The notes below the pieces were generated by a model. The model ran no database searches and was not told the origin of the DNA. It saw nothing but the letters and a program-made list of their open reading frames with translations. This document shows, in pieces, positions 58,576 through 64,000 of a stretch of 64,000 bases of DNA. Made by a program: the position numbers and the translations under genes. How positions within the stretch are numbered: position 1 is the stretch's first letter; each line of letters begins with the position of its first letter. Location: contig NZ_LMEA01000009.1 in assembly GCF_001425235.1 (NCBI RefSeq), positions 1 to 64,000 on the forward strand, given 5' to 3'. Source of the stretch: Devosia sp. Root413D1 (GTDB lineage Bacteria; Pseudomonadota; Alphaproteobacteria; Rhizobiales; Devosiaceae).

Positions 58576-59577
58576 GTGGCCGGCCCCCTTATCTTGTTCC
58601 GAACCCCGTATTTTCGCGGCCCGGTGCCGCTGGCAGGCGTGCCCGACGCGCTGCGGGATCACTTCACCGCCGATCAGGCGCGGCTCCGGGAAGCCGATGC
58701 CGTGGTGTTCCACATCCCGGACTGGCGCCCCACGCAACTGCACGATACGCCGAAATATCCCGGCCAGCTCTGGGTGCTCTGGTCGATGGAAAGCTCGGTG
58801 AACTATCCGCGCATGGGGGATCCGGCTTTTCTTCGCCATTTCGACCTGTTCGTCACTTACGAGCGGAGCGCCGATATCTGGTCGTCGTACCTTCCGCCGA
58901 TGGCCCAGTGGCAAACCGCCCTGCAGGTGCCGCAGCCGTCCAAGCCGGAAGCGGCGCCGCTCGTGCTGTTCCAGTCGGCGCTCATTGACGGCTGCGGCCG
59001 CAACGCCTTCTCCGGCGCCCTGATGCGCCGGATTCCGGTCGACTCCTATGGCCGGGTCTATCGCAACCGCACGCTGGCCGAGGACCTGGGGCGGCAGAGC
59101 AAGCTGGACACGATCTCGCGCTATCATTTCTGCCTGTCGCTCGAGAATTCGTTGTCGCCTGACTATGTGACCGAGAAGCTGTTCGACCCGCTGCTGGTCG
59201 GCACCGTGCCGGTCTATCGCGGCGCCCCCAACGCTGCCGAGTTCGCCCCCGAGCATTCCTATATCGACGCCGAGGCCTATAGCGGACCCAAGGGCCTCGC
59301 AGACTATTTGCGCCACCTGCTGCAGAGTCCGGCCGAGTACGCCGCCTATTTTGCCTGGCGACAGCGGCCGCTGCCCGATTGGATCGAGGAGAAGCTTCGG
59401 GCCTCGGCGACCTCGTGCTGGCTTCGCCTGCTCGAGCGCGTCGACACCGCCCGTACCGGACGGCGGAGCGGGCGGCCGGCGCTGCCCTTCGGTTTTCGAG
59501 CTGCACTCTCGGCGCGGACCACGCGGCTGCTGCGCCGGCTTGGCGGCCGGCAGTCACCGCCGGTACAGTTCCAATGA
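58576..59577 (+). CDS. Family-10 glycosyltransferase (alpha-1,3-fucosyltransferase-like)
   Basis: This 333-aa protein starts at GTG after GGAGCAG. It has the N-terminal acceptor-type segment LWVLWSMESSVNYPR and the GT10 signature FCLSLENSLSPDYVTEKLFD (185-204) followed by GTVPVYRGAPN. The Glu and Lys of that motif bind GDP-fucose in known enzymes. No fucose synthesis genes are in the window. It overlaps the nucleotidyltransferase gene by ATGA, so the two are translated together. The usual C-terminal heptad repeats of bacterial GT10 enzymes are replaced by an Arg-rich tail. Confidence 0.87.
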   Translation: MAGPLILFRTPYFRGPVPLAGVPDALRDHFTADQARLREADAVVFHIPDWRPTQLHDTPKYPGQLWVLWSMESSVNYPRMGDPAFLRHFDLFVTYERSADIWSSYLPPMAQWQTALQVPQPSKPEAAPLVLFQSALIDGCGRNAFSGALMRRIPVDSYGRVYRNRTLAEDLGRQSKLDTISRYHFCLSLENSLSPDYVTEKLFDPLLVGTVPVYRGAPNAAEFAPEHSYIDAEAYSGPKGLADYLRHLLQSPAEYAAYFAWRQRPLPDWIEEKLRASATSCWLRLLERVDTARTGRRSGRPALPFGFRAALSARTTRLLRRLGGRQSPPVQFQ

Positions 59578-60719
59578 CGGAGCGCCCGACCGCCAACCTG
59601 CAGGAGCTGCTCGTCGCCTGTCTGCGGTTCGATGGCGCTGAGGGCGATCAGGCCCTGGCTGGCCGCATCGCGGCTGCAGGGTGGGAGCAGTTGCTCGGCC
59701 ATGCCGACGAGCTGCGCCTTGCTTCGGTGCTGATCACGGCAGTCATGCGTCGCCGTCTCGCGCCACCGGTGCCGCCGCTGACCCTGCCTGACGGACGCAT
59801 GACCATTACCAGGGCGCTGCAGCAACGCTGGACCGATCACCTGGCGCGTCGCGCCATCATGCGGCAGCGCCTTGACGAGATCGTCGGAGCCCTGCGGCGC
59901 GAGGCCATCGTTCCGCTGGCGCTGAAAGGCGGGCGATCGATCGTCACCGGCGCGCCGGACTGGCGGCACCTGCGCGACCTCGACCTGCTGGTCGCGCCGG
60001 CTGAGGCGCAGCGCGCTCAGCAGATCGTCCTGGCGCTCGGCTATCGTCCGGCCGGCGAGCCCCGTCCCCGGCTGATCCATCATCATCTGCACGAGCTGTA
60101 CCGCGCCGACATGCCCGGCTGGATCGAAATTCACCGGCGCGGCGGCCCCTCGCGCGTCGAGCAGTTCCTTCCCTCTGCCGAGCTGCTGGCCGCAGCCATG
60201 GACGCCTCGCCGGGCAATGCGGGCGCTATGGTCCTGCCGGACCATCTGCACGTCCTGCACGGCATCATCCATCACCATGTCGGCCACCGCGCCGTGAAGC
60301 ATGCCACCATCGAGCTCAAGGCGCTCTACGAGTTCGCCGCCGCGGTCATCGACATGGACGAGGGCGGGCGACGCCAACTGGTCGAGCGCGCCGCGAGGCA
60401 TCCGCGCCTGCTGGCAATCCTCGAGCTCTGGACGGCGGCGGCAAGCGATTTGCTGGGCATGCCGGTGGCGGCGTCGCTGCACCTGGCGACGGATTCGATC
60501 GCCTGGTGGGCCAGCATGTGCCGGGCGACGCCGGACATACCGTCACCGGGGATCGGGCCGGAACTGCGCGCGGCCACGTCTGCCGAGCGGATGCGCCGGG
60601 CAGCCGGCGGCGACAGCGCCCTGCGCCGGTTCTACTGGCGGCTGACCATGCCGCTGACCTTCGTCAAGCGGCCGATGCTCATGCCAACGCGGCGGCACCG
60701 CCAAGCGCCATCGCCTTGA
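59574..60719 (+). CDS. Nucleotidyltransferase-family protein (NTP_transf_5/PF14907-like)
   Basis: This 381-aa protein has the PF14907 pattern: a helical N-terminus, PLALKGG (115-121), the metal-binding RHLRDLDLLV (131-140, DxD at 135-137), GWIEIHRRG and a His-rich HVLHGIIHHHVGH. These proteins are common beside peptide-modifying genes with PqqD-like or HprK-like proteins, as here on the opposite strand. The transferred group is unknown. Its last 41 bp overlap the end of the convergent GT2 gene. Confidence 0.8.
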   Translation: MTERPTANLQELLVACLRFDGAEGDQALAGRIAAAGWEQLLGHADELRLASVLITAVMRRRLAPPVPPLTLPDGRMTITRALQQRWTDHLARRAIMRQRLDEIVGALRREAIVPLALKGGRSIVTGAPDWRHLRDLDLLVAPAEAQRAQQIVLALGYRPAGEPRPRLIHHHLHELYRADMPGWIEIHRRGGPSRVEQFLPSAELLAAAMDASPGNAGAMVLPDHLHVLHGIIHHHVGHRAVKHATIELKALYEFAAAVIDMDEGGRRQLVERAARHPRLLAILELWTAAASDLLGMPVAASLHLATDSIAWWASMCRATPDIPSPGIGPELRAATSAERMRRAAGGDSALRRFYWRLTMPLTFVKRPMLMPTRRHRQAPSP

Positions 60720-61803
60720 CGCGATATTCCTGAACCCCCGGGGCGGCGGCGGCCGCGCGCGCAAAGGCTGCGGCTGCCTCGGCGCGGTTACCCAGGCGCA
60801 GCAGCGCGACGCCCATCAAGTCGTGGGCATAGGCGCCGAAAATCCGTCGGTCGTGCGCCAGGATGTCGTCGACGACCGCATCGGCATCTTGTGCAAGGAG
60901 CAGCCGCAGGTCGTCGATCGCCGCACCAAATGCTCCGGCATTCACGCTGGCGCGAGCTCGGAGGAACAGCAGCGACCAATTCTCGGGGTGAAACGTCAAT
61001 CCCGCTGCGATCAACTCGCGCATATCTTCTCCGCGCTGCATGCGAAGGCGAGCGTGGGTGTGGATCAGCATGCTGCGCATGATGCGGCCCGGCCGGTCGG
61101 TGGGCTCACGGCGCCCCAGCCCCTGACTCGAGACCGCGATCGCCTCGTCCAACTGGTCCAGTCCGGCCAGCGTGTTGGCCAGATCCTGCCAGTAGTAGCT
61201 GCGATCGGGATGGCGCTCCACCGAGGCGCGCAACAGGGGCAGGTTGCGGCGGTACTTCGCCAGCATGTCGCCGTCATAGCCCAGATGGAAGAGCTTGGCG
61301 GTCGTGTCGATGACATGCACTCCGGCCGCACGCTGCAGCGCCGACAGGTCGGGCAGCATCGTCTCGTGCATTGCTCCCTTGAACCGGAGCCGCTTGTCGT
61401 TTCGGAACAGCCGGAACTCGCGGTAGAGCGTGCTGTTGCTGGTCACCCGGAACAACAGTCGGGCGGCATAGACATCGGGGGCATCGAGCCCGACGCGCAG
61501 GTCATCGCGCGTGGTTTCGACCAGGCGTTCGTCCGCGTCGATGTAGAGAATCCACTCCGACCCGGCCGCCTCGAGGCCGACATTGCGGGCGGCGGCGAAA
61601 TCATCGTGCCAGGCATACCGAAGGATGCGTGCCCCATGCGCCCTGGCGATGTCGACCGAGGCATCCGTAGAGCCGGTATCGACGATGACGATCTCGTCGA
61701 CCAACCCCTGCAAAGATTTCAAGCAGCCGTCGAGGAACGGCTGCTCGTTCTTGACGATCATGCACGCGCTGATCCTGGGATCAGCGCGCGGTGTTTGGCT
61801 CAC
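60679..61803 (-). CDS. Family-2 glycosyltransferase with TPR-like C-terminus (SunS-like)
   Basis: This 374-aa protein starts ISACMIVKNEQPFLDGCL and has VDTGSTD, a typical GT2/GT-A nucleotide-sugar site, with the metal-binding DAD at 89-91 (LYIDADERL). The C-terminal half (about 200-370) is a chain of TPR-like helices (YYWQDLANTLAGLDQLDEAI, AYAHDLMGVALLRLGNRAEA). This architecture matches the SunS/cd02511 group, which includes the enzyme that glycosylates sublancin on cysteine. The GTG start at 61803 overlaps the stop codon of the upstream peptide gene (GTGA). The peptide has no cysteine, so any sugar would be O- or N-linked. Confidence 0.83.
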   Translation of the reverse strand: MSQTPRADPRISACMIVKNEQPFLDGCLKSLQGLVDEIVIVDTGSTDASVDIARAHGARILRYAWHDDFAAARNVGLEAAGSEWILYIDADERLVETTRDDLRVGLDAPDVYAARLLFRVTSNSTLYREFRLFRNDKRLRFKGAMHETMLPDLSALQRAAGVHVIDTTAKLFHLGYDGDMLAKYRRNLPLLRASVERHPDRSYYWQDLANTLAGLDQLDEAIAVSSQGLGRREPTDRPGRIMRSMLIHTHARLRMQRGEDMRELIAAGLTFHPENWSLLFLRARASVNAGAFGAAIDDLRLLLAQDADAVVDDILAHDRRIFGAYAHDLMGVALLRLGNRAEAAAAFARAAAAAPGVQEYRVKAMALGGAAALA

Positions 61804-61982
61804 GAACCGGTGGAGTTCGCAGCGAACGCCGGGCTCACCATCAGGCCATCGACGGCAAACGATACCACCACAGGAACGGCAAACGCCGAAGTCGTCACCA
61901 GTTTGCGCAGCGCATCGCGGCGACCCTGGTCAACAGTTTCGAGCGCCTGTTCGAGCCGCTCGCTCTCGTTCTTCTCAGACAT
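61800..61982 (-). CDS. Candidate modified-peptide precursor (60 aa)
   Basis: I do not recognise a named family. AAGGGG lies 6 bases before the ATG, and the stop overlaps the GT2 start, so this is a real, coupled gene. The N-terminal 27 residues are charged (MSEKNESERLEQALETVDQG then RRDALRK). Residues 29-50 are hydrophobic with AVPVVVSFAVDGLMVS. The end is PAFA-ANSTGS, where AFA resembles a signal-peptidase site and the tail is a six-residue Ser/Thr/Asn sequence. No Cys, Trp or Tyr is present. Located between an HPr-kinase-like gene and a glycosyltransferase, and after a PqqD-like chaperone, it may be a leader plus core peptide, or a small membrane-anchored substrate. Confidence 0.7.
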   Translation of the reverse strand: MSEKNESERLEQALETVDQGRRDALRKLVTTSAFAVPVVVSFAVDGLMVSPAFAANSTGS

Positions 61983-62032
61983 CGCAACCCCTTGCTCTCA
62001 ATCAGCTGCGAAATGTTGCTCCGCAACGTGGT

Positions 62033-62866
62033 TCACGTCAACTGCGATGCAATACTTGACAGGTGCCATTCAGCGGTAGCGAGGTCTCCGAGCAACAGTT
62101 GGTAGGCTGGTACCTCCACCGCCACCTGCCGCAGCCGCCCGGCAGCGGCGGCTACGCCGGTACGCGGCAGCATCACTTCGCCCATCAATCGCCCGAAAGC
62201 ATCCTTGCTGACGATCGGCCGCGCCGCCGAGCGCCCACCGTGGTTCGCAACGAGGAATACCATGGCGTCAAGCCGGCCCGGGCGAATCGCCCATGGCCGT
62301 CCGCCCACCGCGGGACTGATCGAGCGGACAATCGAGCCGTCCCAGTTGTGAACAGAGGGCGCTTGCCAGACCTGATCCGGCAGCTTCGCGACCAGGTGCA
62401 GGCTCCCCTCTTTCACCCGCAGGGTTCGAGGACGCGCCACCACCTCGCTGTCCCGAATGACCAGGTGTTCGTCGCCCTCGACGTCATAGCCGGCCAGCGC
62501 CAGATGCAAAGCGAGTGTACTCTTGCCCGATCCCTTGTGCCCGACCAGCAGGACGCGGCGCCCGCCGATCATCACCGTGGCCCCATGCAGGAACGGGGCG
62601 CCCGGCTCACCTTCGACCAGATCGGCGAGGATGATCCGGTGCATGGCGCTGAGCACATGGTTCGGCGTTCCCTCGACGAGTTCGCCCGAGGGCAGGGTGG
62701 CCGCGAGAAAACCGTCGCGGAAGCGCACCGGAATATCGAGAACCTCGAGCGGCAGAGCCGGCAATTCTGGCGCCGCTTCGACGAAGCGCAACAGCGAAGC
62801 GACCTCGTCGGAGGGGGGATGCAGCCGATACTCTCGCCTCAGGGTGCGGCAGACGATGGGGCGCAA
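62033..62866 (-). CDS. HPr-kinase-related ATPase (HprK-rel-A type)
   Basis: This 277-aa protein has the P-loop GHKGSGKST (109-117). After it comes the HprK-like DVEGDEHLVIRD (128-139), then LHGATV before the P-loop. It lacks the N-terminal regulatory domain of true HPr kinases. Related proteins phosphorylate Ser in peptides of lasso-peptide clusters, and they accompany PqqD-like proteins in the so-called HPr-rel-A cassette. No HPr gene is present. A TTG at 62866, overlapping the end of the PqqD-like gene by 28 bp, is the best start, with AAGGG upstream. The longer frame to 62992 is Arg-rich shadow sequence of pqqD. Confidence 0.8.
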   Translation of the reverse strand: MRPIVCRTLRREYRLHPPSDEVASLLRFVEAAPELPALPLEVLDIPVRFRDGFLAATLPSGELVEGTPNHVLSAMHRIILADLVEGEPGAPFLHGATVMIGGRRVLLVGHKGSGKSTLALHLALAGYDVEGDEHLVIRDSEVVARPRTLRVKEGSLHLVAKLPDQVWQAPSVHNWDGSIVRSISPAVGGRPWAIRPGRLDAMVFLVANHGGRSAARPIVSKDAFGRLMGEVMLPRTGVAAAAGRLRQVAVEVPAYQLLLGDLATAEWHLSSIASQLT

Positions 62867-63135
62867 ACCACCAGCCCTTCGTCGAGCAGCGAGGCGAGGC
62901 AGTCCTTGACTGCCTCGGTCGGCGCCACGTCGAGGCCGAACGCATCGGCGATGAAGGCCTCGATCTCGCCGGCCGTCTTGTTGAGGCCGCACAGTTCGAA
63001 CACGATCAGCGCGGTCGGATTGAGGAAGTGCACGCGCTCGCGTTCGTTCTGGTAGACCATGGCGCCATCCGGTACGCGATTGACCTCGATGCCATCGACG
63101 GAACTGAACTTCGTATCGGGTGCGATCTCAGTCAT
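62839..63135 (-). CDS. PqqD-like peptide chaperone (HPr-rel-A system type)
   Basis: This 98-aa protein has the PqqD layout: VNRVPDGAMVYQNERERVHF (beta hairpin), then FLNPTALIVFELCGLNKTAG and a helical C-terminus (EIEAFIADAFGLDVAPTEAV). PqqD proteins bind leader peptides and present precursors to modifying enzymes. Its presence suggests the 60-aa peptide downstream is a substrate. It begins 27 bp after the glycosyltransferase stop codon and overlaps the HprK-like gene. Confidence 0.83.
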   Translation of the reverse strand: MTEIAPDTKFSSVDGIEVNRVPDGAMVYQNERERVHFLNPTALIVFELCGLNKTAGEIEAFIADAFGLDVAPTEAVKDCLASLLDEGLVVCAPSSAAP

Positions 63136-63162
63136 CGCATCTGGTCTCCTTTGGCCCGCTGG

Positions 63163-64000
63163 TCATCTAGCTGCAATTTCCGAAAGGCGGCAAGCGAGCC
63201 GTTCGATGACGCCACCCCGCTGATACTGCGCGCGGACGATAGACCATGCGGCCTCCACGCGGGTCGCGCTGGCGCGGGCATCGGCGATAGTATCGAGCGT
63301 CGCCTCGGCGAACCCGGCGACACTGTCGGCGAGCAGCAAGTGCTTGCCGCTTTCGAACGGCAGCCCCCTGGCGCCGAGGGTGGTTGCGACCAGCGGCACC
63401 CGGTGCGCGGCGGCTTCGAGCAGTTTCACCCGCGTACCGGCGCCAGCGCGGAGCGGCGCAAGAAACACCGTGGCTCGACCATAGGCATCGGCGACGTCTT
63501 CGATATCGGGTTGAACCTCGACCCTGTCCCGCTGCCCAAGCCGGGCAACCCGGCCGGCATCGCGCCCAACGATCAGCAGACGCAGCGGACGAGCCGCATG
63601 GCGTTGGATGAGAGGCCAGATCTCCTCAACGAGCCAGTTGGCCGCATCGACGTTCGGTGCGTAGCCGAATGAGCCGAGAAACAGCAGCGTTGCGCCATCA
63701 TCTCGCCGATGGGTTTCGGCCGGCACACTCACCGCGTTCTCGATGACCTCGAGCCCGGCGGTCGTCGGGTGGCGGTGCTCGATCAGAGCTGCATCGAGCC
63801 GGCTCGAGATGAACCGGGCGGCAAAGCGCGGGGCTTGCCGCCCGATGAGTGCGGCCATGGCGTCGGCCTCCGCCGCTGCCCAGGCCGAACCGACCGGATC
63901 GCCCGGCTCCAAAGTTGCGGCGATCTCACGGTGGGAGGTCCACTCGTCCTCATCGAGATCAACGGTCGCTCGTGCGGCGTCGAGCACCTGAAGCGCGTCG
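63163..64000 (-). CDS. Glycosyltransferase (GT-B, family 4-like), truncated by the window edge
   Basis: The frame is open from 64000 to the stop at 63163, giving the C-terminal 279 residues. LLFLGSFGYAPNVDAANWLV, LRLLIVGRDAG and APLRAGAGTRVKLLEAAAHR, followed by VPLVATTLGARGL, are the Rossmann and nucleotide-sugar binding motifs of GT4-type enzymes. The start is off the window: the internal GTG at 63987 is unlikely to be real because the preceding residues (ALQVLDAARATVDLDEDEW) continue the usual N-half pattern. It is probably the first visible gene of the operon leading to the peptide and GT2. Confidence 0.8.
   Translation of the reverse strand, partial: DALQVLDAARATVDLDEDEWTSHREIAATLEPGDPVGSAWAAAEADAMAALIGRQAPRFAARFISSRLDAALIEHRHPTTAGLEVIENAVSVPAETHRRDDGATLLFLGSFGYAPNVDAANWLVEEIWPLIQRHAARPLRLLIVGRDAGRVARLGQRDRVEVQPDIEDVADAYGRATVFLAPLRAGAGTRVKLLEAAAHRVPLVATTLGARGLPFESGKHLLLADSVAGFAEATLDTIADARASATRVEAAWSIVRAQYQRGGVIERLACRLSEIAAR

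Follow-up and report, generated by a model that had tools for sequence, protein, structure and literature searches.

Gene content of the cluster

The window analysed here is a stretch of 64,000 nucleotides, bases 1-64000 of contig C9 (575,790 bases) in the 5.85-Mb genome of Devosia sp. Root413D1. Its right-hand end carries a cassette in which a 60-aa peptide is encoded among an HprK-like kinase, a PqqD-like protein, a PF14907 protein and several glycosyltransferases (GTs). Conservation, synteny and co-occurrence make it highly probable that the peptide is a genuine gene and the likely substrate of the cassette, with a leader that doubles as an export signal. The cassette itself is real, conserved and apparently undescribed in the open-licence literature, where no description of it was found. 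The seven genes of the window, all located where the initial annotation had placed them, and two genes beyond its edge are as follows.

58576..59577, plus strand: GT10 fucosyltransferase-like protein (PF00852, 110 bits; PF17039, 55 bits).
59574..60719, plus strand: PF14907 nucleotidyltransferase-fold protein (74-75 bits), with KG, R and DxD invariant in 12 aligned sequences.
60679..61803, minus strand: GT2-TPR, a probable peptide glycosyltransferase with a GT2 domain (PF00535, 66 bits) and weak tetratricopeptide repeats (TPRs).
61800..61982, minus strand: putative precursor peptide of 60 aa, conserved in four Devosia genomes under purifying selection, with relatives mostly in alphaproteobacterial loci.
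62033..62866 (start uncertain), minus strand: HprK-like kinase (TIGR04352, 40.4 bits), P-loop GHKGSGKS intact.
62839..63135, minus strand: PqqD-like protein, the probable recognition element (RRE) of a ribosomally synthesized and post-translationally modified peptide (RiPP) (TIGR04353, 21.6 bits; PF05402, 19.4 bits).
63163..64000, minus strand: GT4 glycosyltransferase (PF13692, 79 bits), cut by the window edge and running to 64398.
About 64395-65888, beyond the window: PF11051 (Mannosyl_trans3, GT71-like) protein, Pfam match.
65999-66754, beyond the window: PF03452 (Anp1, GT62-like) protein, Pfam match.

Pfam profiles support the GT10, PF14907, GT2 (with weak TPRs) and GT4-type calls that had been made from the letters alone. 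The start/stop overlaps noticed at the same time are real: the stop codon of the peptide gene overlaps the start of GT2-TPR in GTGA, and that of GT10 overlaps the start of PF14907 in ATGA. For the kinase, the nearest usual in-frame start is a TTG at 62866, homology begins at about 62854, and the longest open reading frame (ORF) runs from a GTG at 62992. The cluster continues to the right, as the initial annotation had allowed; the GT4 that it listed is incomplete in the window, and the extended contig adds the PF11051 and PF03452 genes, an epimerase gene (GDP-mannose-dehydratase-like) and one for an FkbM methyltransferase. Five glycosyltransferases, the methyltransferase and the epimerase stand in one cluster. 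The Pfam names of the two outer glycosyltransferases come from the profile matches, and we take PF11051 to be family GT71 and PF03452 to be GT62.

The putative precursor peptide and its partners

Purifying selection marks the 60-aa ORF as a real gene: in all six pairs among the four Devosia genomes, the leader has a pN/pS of 0.02-0.26, with synonymous differences far in excess. The leader of the window peptide contains R21-R22, a hydrophobic stretch with a Kyte-Doolittle mean of 1.93 over 18 residues and the RRE-motif-like F34-A-V-P37-V-V, followed by AFA and a tail ending in NSTGS.

The anatomy of the family is drawn from 37 peptides in 23 loci, 19 of them from an anchored scan described below and four others (L003, L024, L046 and L048). 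The pair [RK]R stands ahead of the hydrophobic stretch in 36 of the 37 peptides, as RR in 19. Every peptide carries [FYW]xxPx[VI] within a signal-peptide-like leader; the wider form [FYW]xxPx[LVIAFY], likewise present in 37/37 peptides and 23/23 loci, has a mean of 1.0 and a maximum of 6 in 5000 shuffles. Phe is the usual aromatic residue, and the strict [YW]xxP occurs in 8 of 37. A W/Y/LxxP class of RRE recognition sequences that covers PqqD and lasso RREs is described in the available part of PMC12710340. The aromatic-xxP motif of the cassette leaders resembles an RRE site of the YxxP type, binding to it being predicted from this likeness. Of the 23 loci, 18 have an AxA after the motif (mean 3.3 and maximum 11 in shuffles), and 22 have an Asn 11-17 residues past the anchor position (mean 10.5 and maximum 18 in shuffles). 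This Asn is kept both with a 5-residue tail and with a pentapeptide-repeat protein of about 180 residues (L069, L074). In 11 of the 23 loci, all four Devosia among these, one or more peptides end in Ser.

The peptide gene is often repeated in tandem, with 7 copies in G198, 3 in G290, 4 in L072, 3 in L084 and 2 in L066. The seven genes of G198 (L046:9115-10884) encode [VA]ANGSG cores that are almost the same, with differences in the last residues, and the same locus contains two HprK and two GT71-like genes. At L069:14458-15123 and L074:14452-15141 the cassette leader is fused to the pentapeptide-repeat protein, the Asn being retained right after the signal; the fusion gene is placed after PqqD and not between HprK and GT2-TPR.

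Clear copies of the peptide occur in 4 of 19 Devosia-group genomes, and clear copies of the kinase occur in the same four; six of the 19 congeners gave chance-level matches (E 0.3-0.9) that were left uncounted, and one of these six also has a clear copy. Across the order, the peptide was found in at least 13 of 397 genomes at E<=0.01, strongly in its own genome and four others, and another search returned at least 7 of 397, two of them weak. Four further genomes of the order have clear peptide relatives beside the same cassette genes; GT10 was not found in 20 kb of G198, nor GT4 in 20 kb of G212. Among the matches listed, the class-wide (at least 1 of 385 genomes) and phylum-wide (at least 1 of 398) peptide searches returned only the genome of origin.

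A scan of one genome per species, 84,980 species in all, was performed with the GT62-like protein as anchor, searched through two exact amino-acid patterns. At least 36 loci were found by the anchor, and since the anchor is the GT62-like protein, the peptide played no part in the choice of these loci. An HprK-like gene is present in 20 of them. These 20 HprK loci contain PqqD in 20 cases, GT2-TPR in 20, GT4 in 19, the GT71-like gene in 18, a peptide over threshold in 17, PF14907 in 10 and GT10 in 4; in the 16 HprK-less loci the peptide is over threshold in none, PqqD is present in 2, GT2-TPR in 1, GT4 in 6 and the GT71-like gene in 2. The short frame, whose conservation the initial annotation had set as a condition of its reading, is intact in most related loci. 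Its place next to kinase and GT2 is borne out as well: in 15 of the 20, nothing separates the peptide gene from HprK on one side and GT2-TPR on the other. By record label, 19 of the HprK loci are alphaproteobacterial and one (L069) is from a deltaproteobacterial metagenome-assembled genome (MAG); 17 of the 20 are MAGs. The scan loci include L051 from Devosia insulae DS-56, which has the cassette, and L052 from a Devosia MAG. Distances among the cassette proteins correlate with r 0.55-0.91, uncorrected for kinship, and were not used as evidence of co-evolution. Two contigs labelled as actinobacterial MAGs also carry the GT62-like gene, one with a PqqD-domain protein (L067:458-1483, 55 bits by a profile built for this analysis), the other with a weak leader-like ORF (L065:667-762, 16 bits).

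Among solved structures in the PDB, the GT2-TPR profile (19 aligned sequences) matches GmaR best (3.9e-46), followed by SunS (1.2e-33), and its IDADER motif is invariant in all 19 sequences. Both GmaR and SunS are cytoplasmic enzymes that attach sugars to proteins or peptides, and because these are its closest relatives, GT2-TPR is likely to be a peptide glycosyltransferase. The plasmid collection yielded general GT2 relatives only, none covering 80% of the query. The GT4 reaches 103 bits against TIGR03087 of the XrtA system, under the cut-off of 317. A rough clustering of ORFs from the 23 loci, made by longest-ORF choice and capable of missing some families, gives FkbM (5 loci) as the sole extra recurrent family, with no polymerase or flippase recurring.

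TIGR04352 is matched at E<=0.001 by 13 of 21 aligned cassette kinases (best E 7e-12) and PF05402 by 19 of 22 aligned PqqD-like relatives, the window protein (19.4 bits, gathering score 23.4) not being among these. The PF14907 protein reaches 74.4 bits against NTP_transf_5, over the gathering score of 31.2, and its profile matched no meaningful solved structure. By these matches the PqqD-like and HprK-like genes appear to be distant members of the superfamilies that the initial annotation had named, and this second condition, like that of the short frame, comes out in favour of its reading. The narrower profiles that it had suggested did not hold: TIGR04352, TIGR04353 and SunS point to the right superfamilies only, and membership of HPr-rel-A (TIGR04352, TIGR04353) or SunS was rejected, with scores under every curated cut-off. 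The P-loop lysine is lost at L055:6392-7195, L059:6274-7065 and L073:5968-6765, which are possible pseudokinases.

Proposed pathway and alternatives

The cassette can be described as an RRE-guided, RiPP-like pathway, in an HprK-containing variant with a signal-like leader and fungal-type mannosyltransferases. That its product is a ribosomal glycopeptide has an even chance. In the proposed pathway, the PqqD-like protein would bind [FYW]xxPx[VI], which lies within the hydrophobic leader segment, and present the tail to the enzymes; this binding is probable, and the bound PqqD perhaps hides the export signal until modification is complete. The short tail, NSTGS in the window peptide, would next receive an initial sugar from GT2-TPR, in the vicinity of the conserved Asn or of the Ser/Thr residues beside it. 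GT4, the GT71-like and GT62-like proteins and here also GT10 would lengthen this sugar to a mannose/fucose-type oligosaccharide, an order of events that is moderately favoured. The HprK-like kinase, together with the PF14907 protein where present, would phosphorylate a Ser of the tail and may cap the phosphate, perhaps with a sugar, in the manner of PsmK and PsmN in pseudomycoidin. This step comes close to an even chance without reaching it, and it probably does not take place at every locus. The modified precursor would leave by the general Sec or Tat (twin-arginine translocation) route and be cut by signal peptidase at AxA, therefore requiring no dedicated exporter or protease; this exit is slightly favoured. 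Genes for TatC and signal peptidase I are present in the same genome. The protease and exporter that the initial annotation could not see are probably accounted for by the signal-peptide-like leader with its AxA, a feature that this annotation had missed. Two findings, the [FYW]xxP motif of the leader and the kinship of the GT2 with GmaR and SunS, lend weight to its idea that a ribosomal peptide is chaperoned and modified. That the peptide is phosphorylated, glycosylated or attached to a surface glycan stays at the level of prediction.

More tentatively, a single sequence may serve as both RRE-binding leader and general export signal, which would define an undescribed class of ribosomal glycopeptides. 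PqqD would clamp FxxP in the hydrophobic core of the signal, keeping the precursor cytoplasmic during glycosylation. The GmaR/SunS-like enzyme and the yeast-type (GT62-, GT71-like) mannosyltransferases would build an oligosaccharide at an Asn-centred core of 5-12 residues, and release of PqqD would let the secretion machinery export the finished product. The same logic of signal, PqqD and kinase would also explain HPr-rel-A cassettes and the SCWxSF-type partner proteins described below. For the poorly characterised HprK/PqqD/PF14907 cassettes, this supplies a defined candidate substrate, for which a binding site, a modified tail and a route of export can be predicted. If the proposal is true, fungal-type mannosyltransferases join ribosomal peptide chemistry, and a signal peptide is usable as a RiPP leader.

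Several observations weigh against the glycopeptide proposal. On the side of the peptide, L056 has the enzymes and no recognisable peptide, the L063 peptide scores just below threshold, and the L059 peptide is a divergent ORF accepted by eye. L050 (3.4 kb) and L062 (7.2 kb), counted among the HprK-less loci, are not true negatives because their contigs cut the cassette. The leader and tail figures are partly circular, since the peptides were collected with the family profile and the loci are related, the L059 peptide moreover being added by eye for its motif; this circularity touches neither the Devosia peptides nor the genomic association. Long tails occur in L069, L071, L073, L074, L076 and L081, and a short tail is therefore not general. 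A strict N-glycosylation sequon fails as a rule: 13 of the 23 loci have NxS/T, which does not establish N-glycosylation. A plain Tat signal was rejected as well, none of ten proteins (four cassette peptides and six HPr-rel-A partners) passing the TIGR01409 cut-off of 16.7 (best 7.5 bits), and the window peptide has no NCBIfam match at E<=10.

The enzymes add points of the same kind. The kinase (40.4 bits against a TIGR04352 cut-off of 200), the PqqD-like protein (21.6 bits, TIGR04353 cut-off 35) and GT2-TPR (70.9 bits, SunS TIGR04195 cut-off 350) are to be read as distant relatives because they score well below the curated cut-offs. Against PDB, the top match of the kinase profile (21 aligned) is an ABC-F ATPase (4e-7), with HPr kinase 1ko7 ranking lower (7.8e-6), and the PqqD profile (22 aligned) finds TfuB1 and PqqC/D at 0.016, with A-Raf scoring at least as well. 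Three of the 21 aligned kinases have lost the P-loop (the second copy of L055, L059 and L073), and in L059 and L073 the P-loop-less copy is the sole kinase found; owing to this loss, phosphorylation is probably not a universal step. PF14907 is present in half of the HprK loci, some of them cut by contig ends, and GT10 is optional.

An unlikely alternative, though the foremost one, has as its product a linear (poly)phosphorylated peptide of the Bacillota kind, with PqqD presenting the precursor, the kinase phosphorylating a Ser of the tail, PF14907 adding a hexose or nucleotide, and the glycosyltransferases belonging to a neighbouring surface-polysaccharide locus. Linear polyphosphorylated peptides (LPPs; PMC13381572), the best precedent for a linear product, and the paeninodin and pseudomycoidin lasso peptides are the closest known systems. 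According to the available passages of PMC13381572, the LPP core genes encode a discrete RRE, an HprK-like kinase and an NTP transferase within GT-rich capsule loci, a trio that the Devosia cassette shares by superfamily-level matches, and both have variable C-termini behind a conserved leader, a GT-rich setting and a patchy distribution. The same passages report that LppK phosphorylates Ser3 of the LPP core and that LppN was inactive in the test host (PMC13381572). The C-terminal Ser of many cassette peptides suits this alternative, and so does G261, where three peptides stand with a PqqD-HprK-like fusion and PF14907 and the downstream genes listed include no glycosyltransferase. It is opposed by the way in which GT2-TPR, GT4 and the GT71-like gene track HprK (20, 19 and 18 of 20 loci versus 1, 6 and 2 of 16), by the incomplete presence of PF14907 and by the two single-kinase loci without a P-loop. 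The LPP leader motif, YxxPxVLxHQ, is absent from all 37 cassette peptides. The SipW-like peptidase and MsbA-like transporter that accompany this motif in LPP loci (available passages of PMC13381572) may also set LPPs apart; no SpI-like peptidase or MsbA-like transporter was seen among the recurrent unassigned ORFs of the 23 loci, by rough clustering with no profile scan for either. The cassette differs further in its export-signal-like leader and in having GT2-TPR, GT4, GT62-like and GT71-like proteins as near-constant partners.

Rather less likely still, the peptide may be a primer or anchor on which a surface glycan grows, the product being a peptide-linked polysaccharide. The clustering of five glycosyltransferases with a methyltransferase and an epimerase, the likeness of the GT4 to the XrtA-system TIGR03087 and a tail too short for a protein are consistent with a primer, but a recurrent polymerase or flippase is missing from the rough ORF clustering, and multicopy peptides with varied tails suit small products better. 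Also improbable is a role as an unmodified secreted or membrane accessory protein of the glycan locus (signal, anchor or regulator), with PqqD and HprK acting elsewhere: the near-invariant Asn stays at a similar distance even with a long tail, and the invariant aromatic-xxP resembles known RRE sites in a gene that sits with PqqD. In favour of such a role are the hydrophobic leader stretch and a weak likeness to TIGR02811, 'formate dehydrogenase region TAT target', in one cassette relative and two HPr-rel-A partners, far below the cut-off. A spurious short ORF, or neighbours that are unrelated polysaccharide genes, is hardly credible; 60 aa does fall within the chance-ORF range of GC-rich DNA, but a chance origin is already contradicted by purifying selection, tandem copies, co-occurrence with the kinase among congeners and synteny across many genera.

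Related systems and loci

The lasso systems of paeninodin and pseudomycoidin (PadeK; PsmK, PsmN) resemble the cassette in combining a kinase and a nucleotidyltransferase on a ribosomal peptide. In pseudomycoidin, which offers the best precedent for such a pair of enzymes, PsmK phosphorylates a C-terminal Ser and PsmN is needed for a hexose on the phosphate, as described in the available passages of PMC9266682. The lasso systems differ in having their own leader type and in a macrolactam cyclase and B2 peptidase, which are unseen among the window genes. A lasso peptide was rejected as the product: no cyclase or B2 peptidase is found in the seven genes of the window or as a recurrent extra family, most flanking ORFs of the relatives not having been profile-scanned.

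SunS glycocins and the flagellin glycosyltransferase GmaR are alike in a GT2 domain that acts on a peptide or protein. Glycocins have Cys-rich cores and dedicated exporters, and they are not known to be accompanied by PqqD or HprK.

Bufferins are RiPP precursors with a Sec signal, for which the authors suggest that a partner may mask the signal until modification is done; they differ in their MNIO enzymes, and the available passages name no kinase or glycosyltransferases (PMC12452194). Fusions of an RRE to a glycosyltransferase are mentioned in the accessible part of the RRE-Finder report (PMC7470986). These share the genetic link between RRE and glycosyltransferase and differ in being fused, and they are known here by mention and not by sequence (PMC7470986).

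HPr-rel-A (TIGR04352, TIGR04353) is similar in joining, by NCBIfam names, a kinase with PqqD. The cassette differs in scoring far under the curated cut-offs, and the HPr-rel-A partner proteins have mature parts of about 100-130 residues. In 17 of 20 loci over the TIGR04352 cut-off (L105-L124), a signal-like ORF with an RRR leader lies upstream of the kinase, these ORFs having been chosen by a permissive pattern and by eye. One such leader reads RRRRLLKGLAAGVPAIVTLQSGAALA. The motif [ST]CWxS[FLI] is found near the C-terminus in 15 of the 17 RRR-leader proteins, and the RRR-leader protein is a candidate substrate of the HPr-rel-A system. A PF14907-like gene is present in 12 of these 20 loci by a profile built for this analysis, and the PqqD pattern is seen in 6. 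Thirteen HPr-rel-A partner leaders align in register with the cassette peptides over 27 columns (E 0.0004, probability 35%), a moderate match. The comparison suggests a general module of signal-like precursor, PqqD, HprK-like kinase and PF14907, with glycosyltransferases as an addition in the Devosia-type cassette.

Three further loci were noted. At L103:9685-12751 (G261), three tandem tail-less peptides (RRxxxxKLxKGxAYxAP) accompany PF14907 and the PqqD-HprK-like fusion, in which PF05402 reaches 33 bits, over the cut-off, and the HPr kinase part 14 bits, under the cut-off. The genome of the window itself has a second HprK-like (22 bits) and PF14907 (80 bits) locus on contig C12 (L005:11957-15702), with five short [KT]xYxxPxL-type peptides, PqqD (50 bits) and Transglut_core3 (B2-like, 44 bits), in the form of a lasso-like multi-precursor cluster. 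At L104:8159-10285 (G327), PqqD (52 bits), a peptide ending in TGNT and a NodZ fucosyltransferase (200 bits) are grouped, with no kinase noticed, and a transposase-like ORF, identified by eye, adjoins the group.

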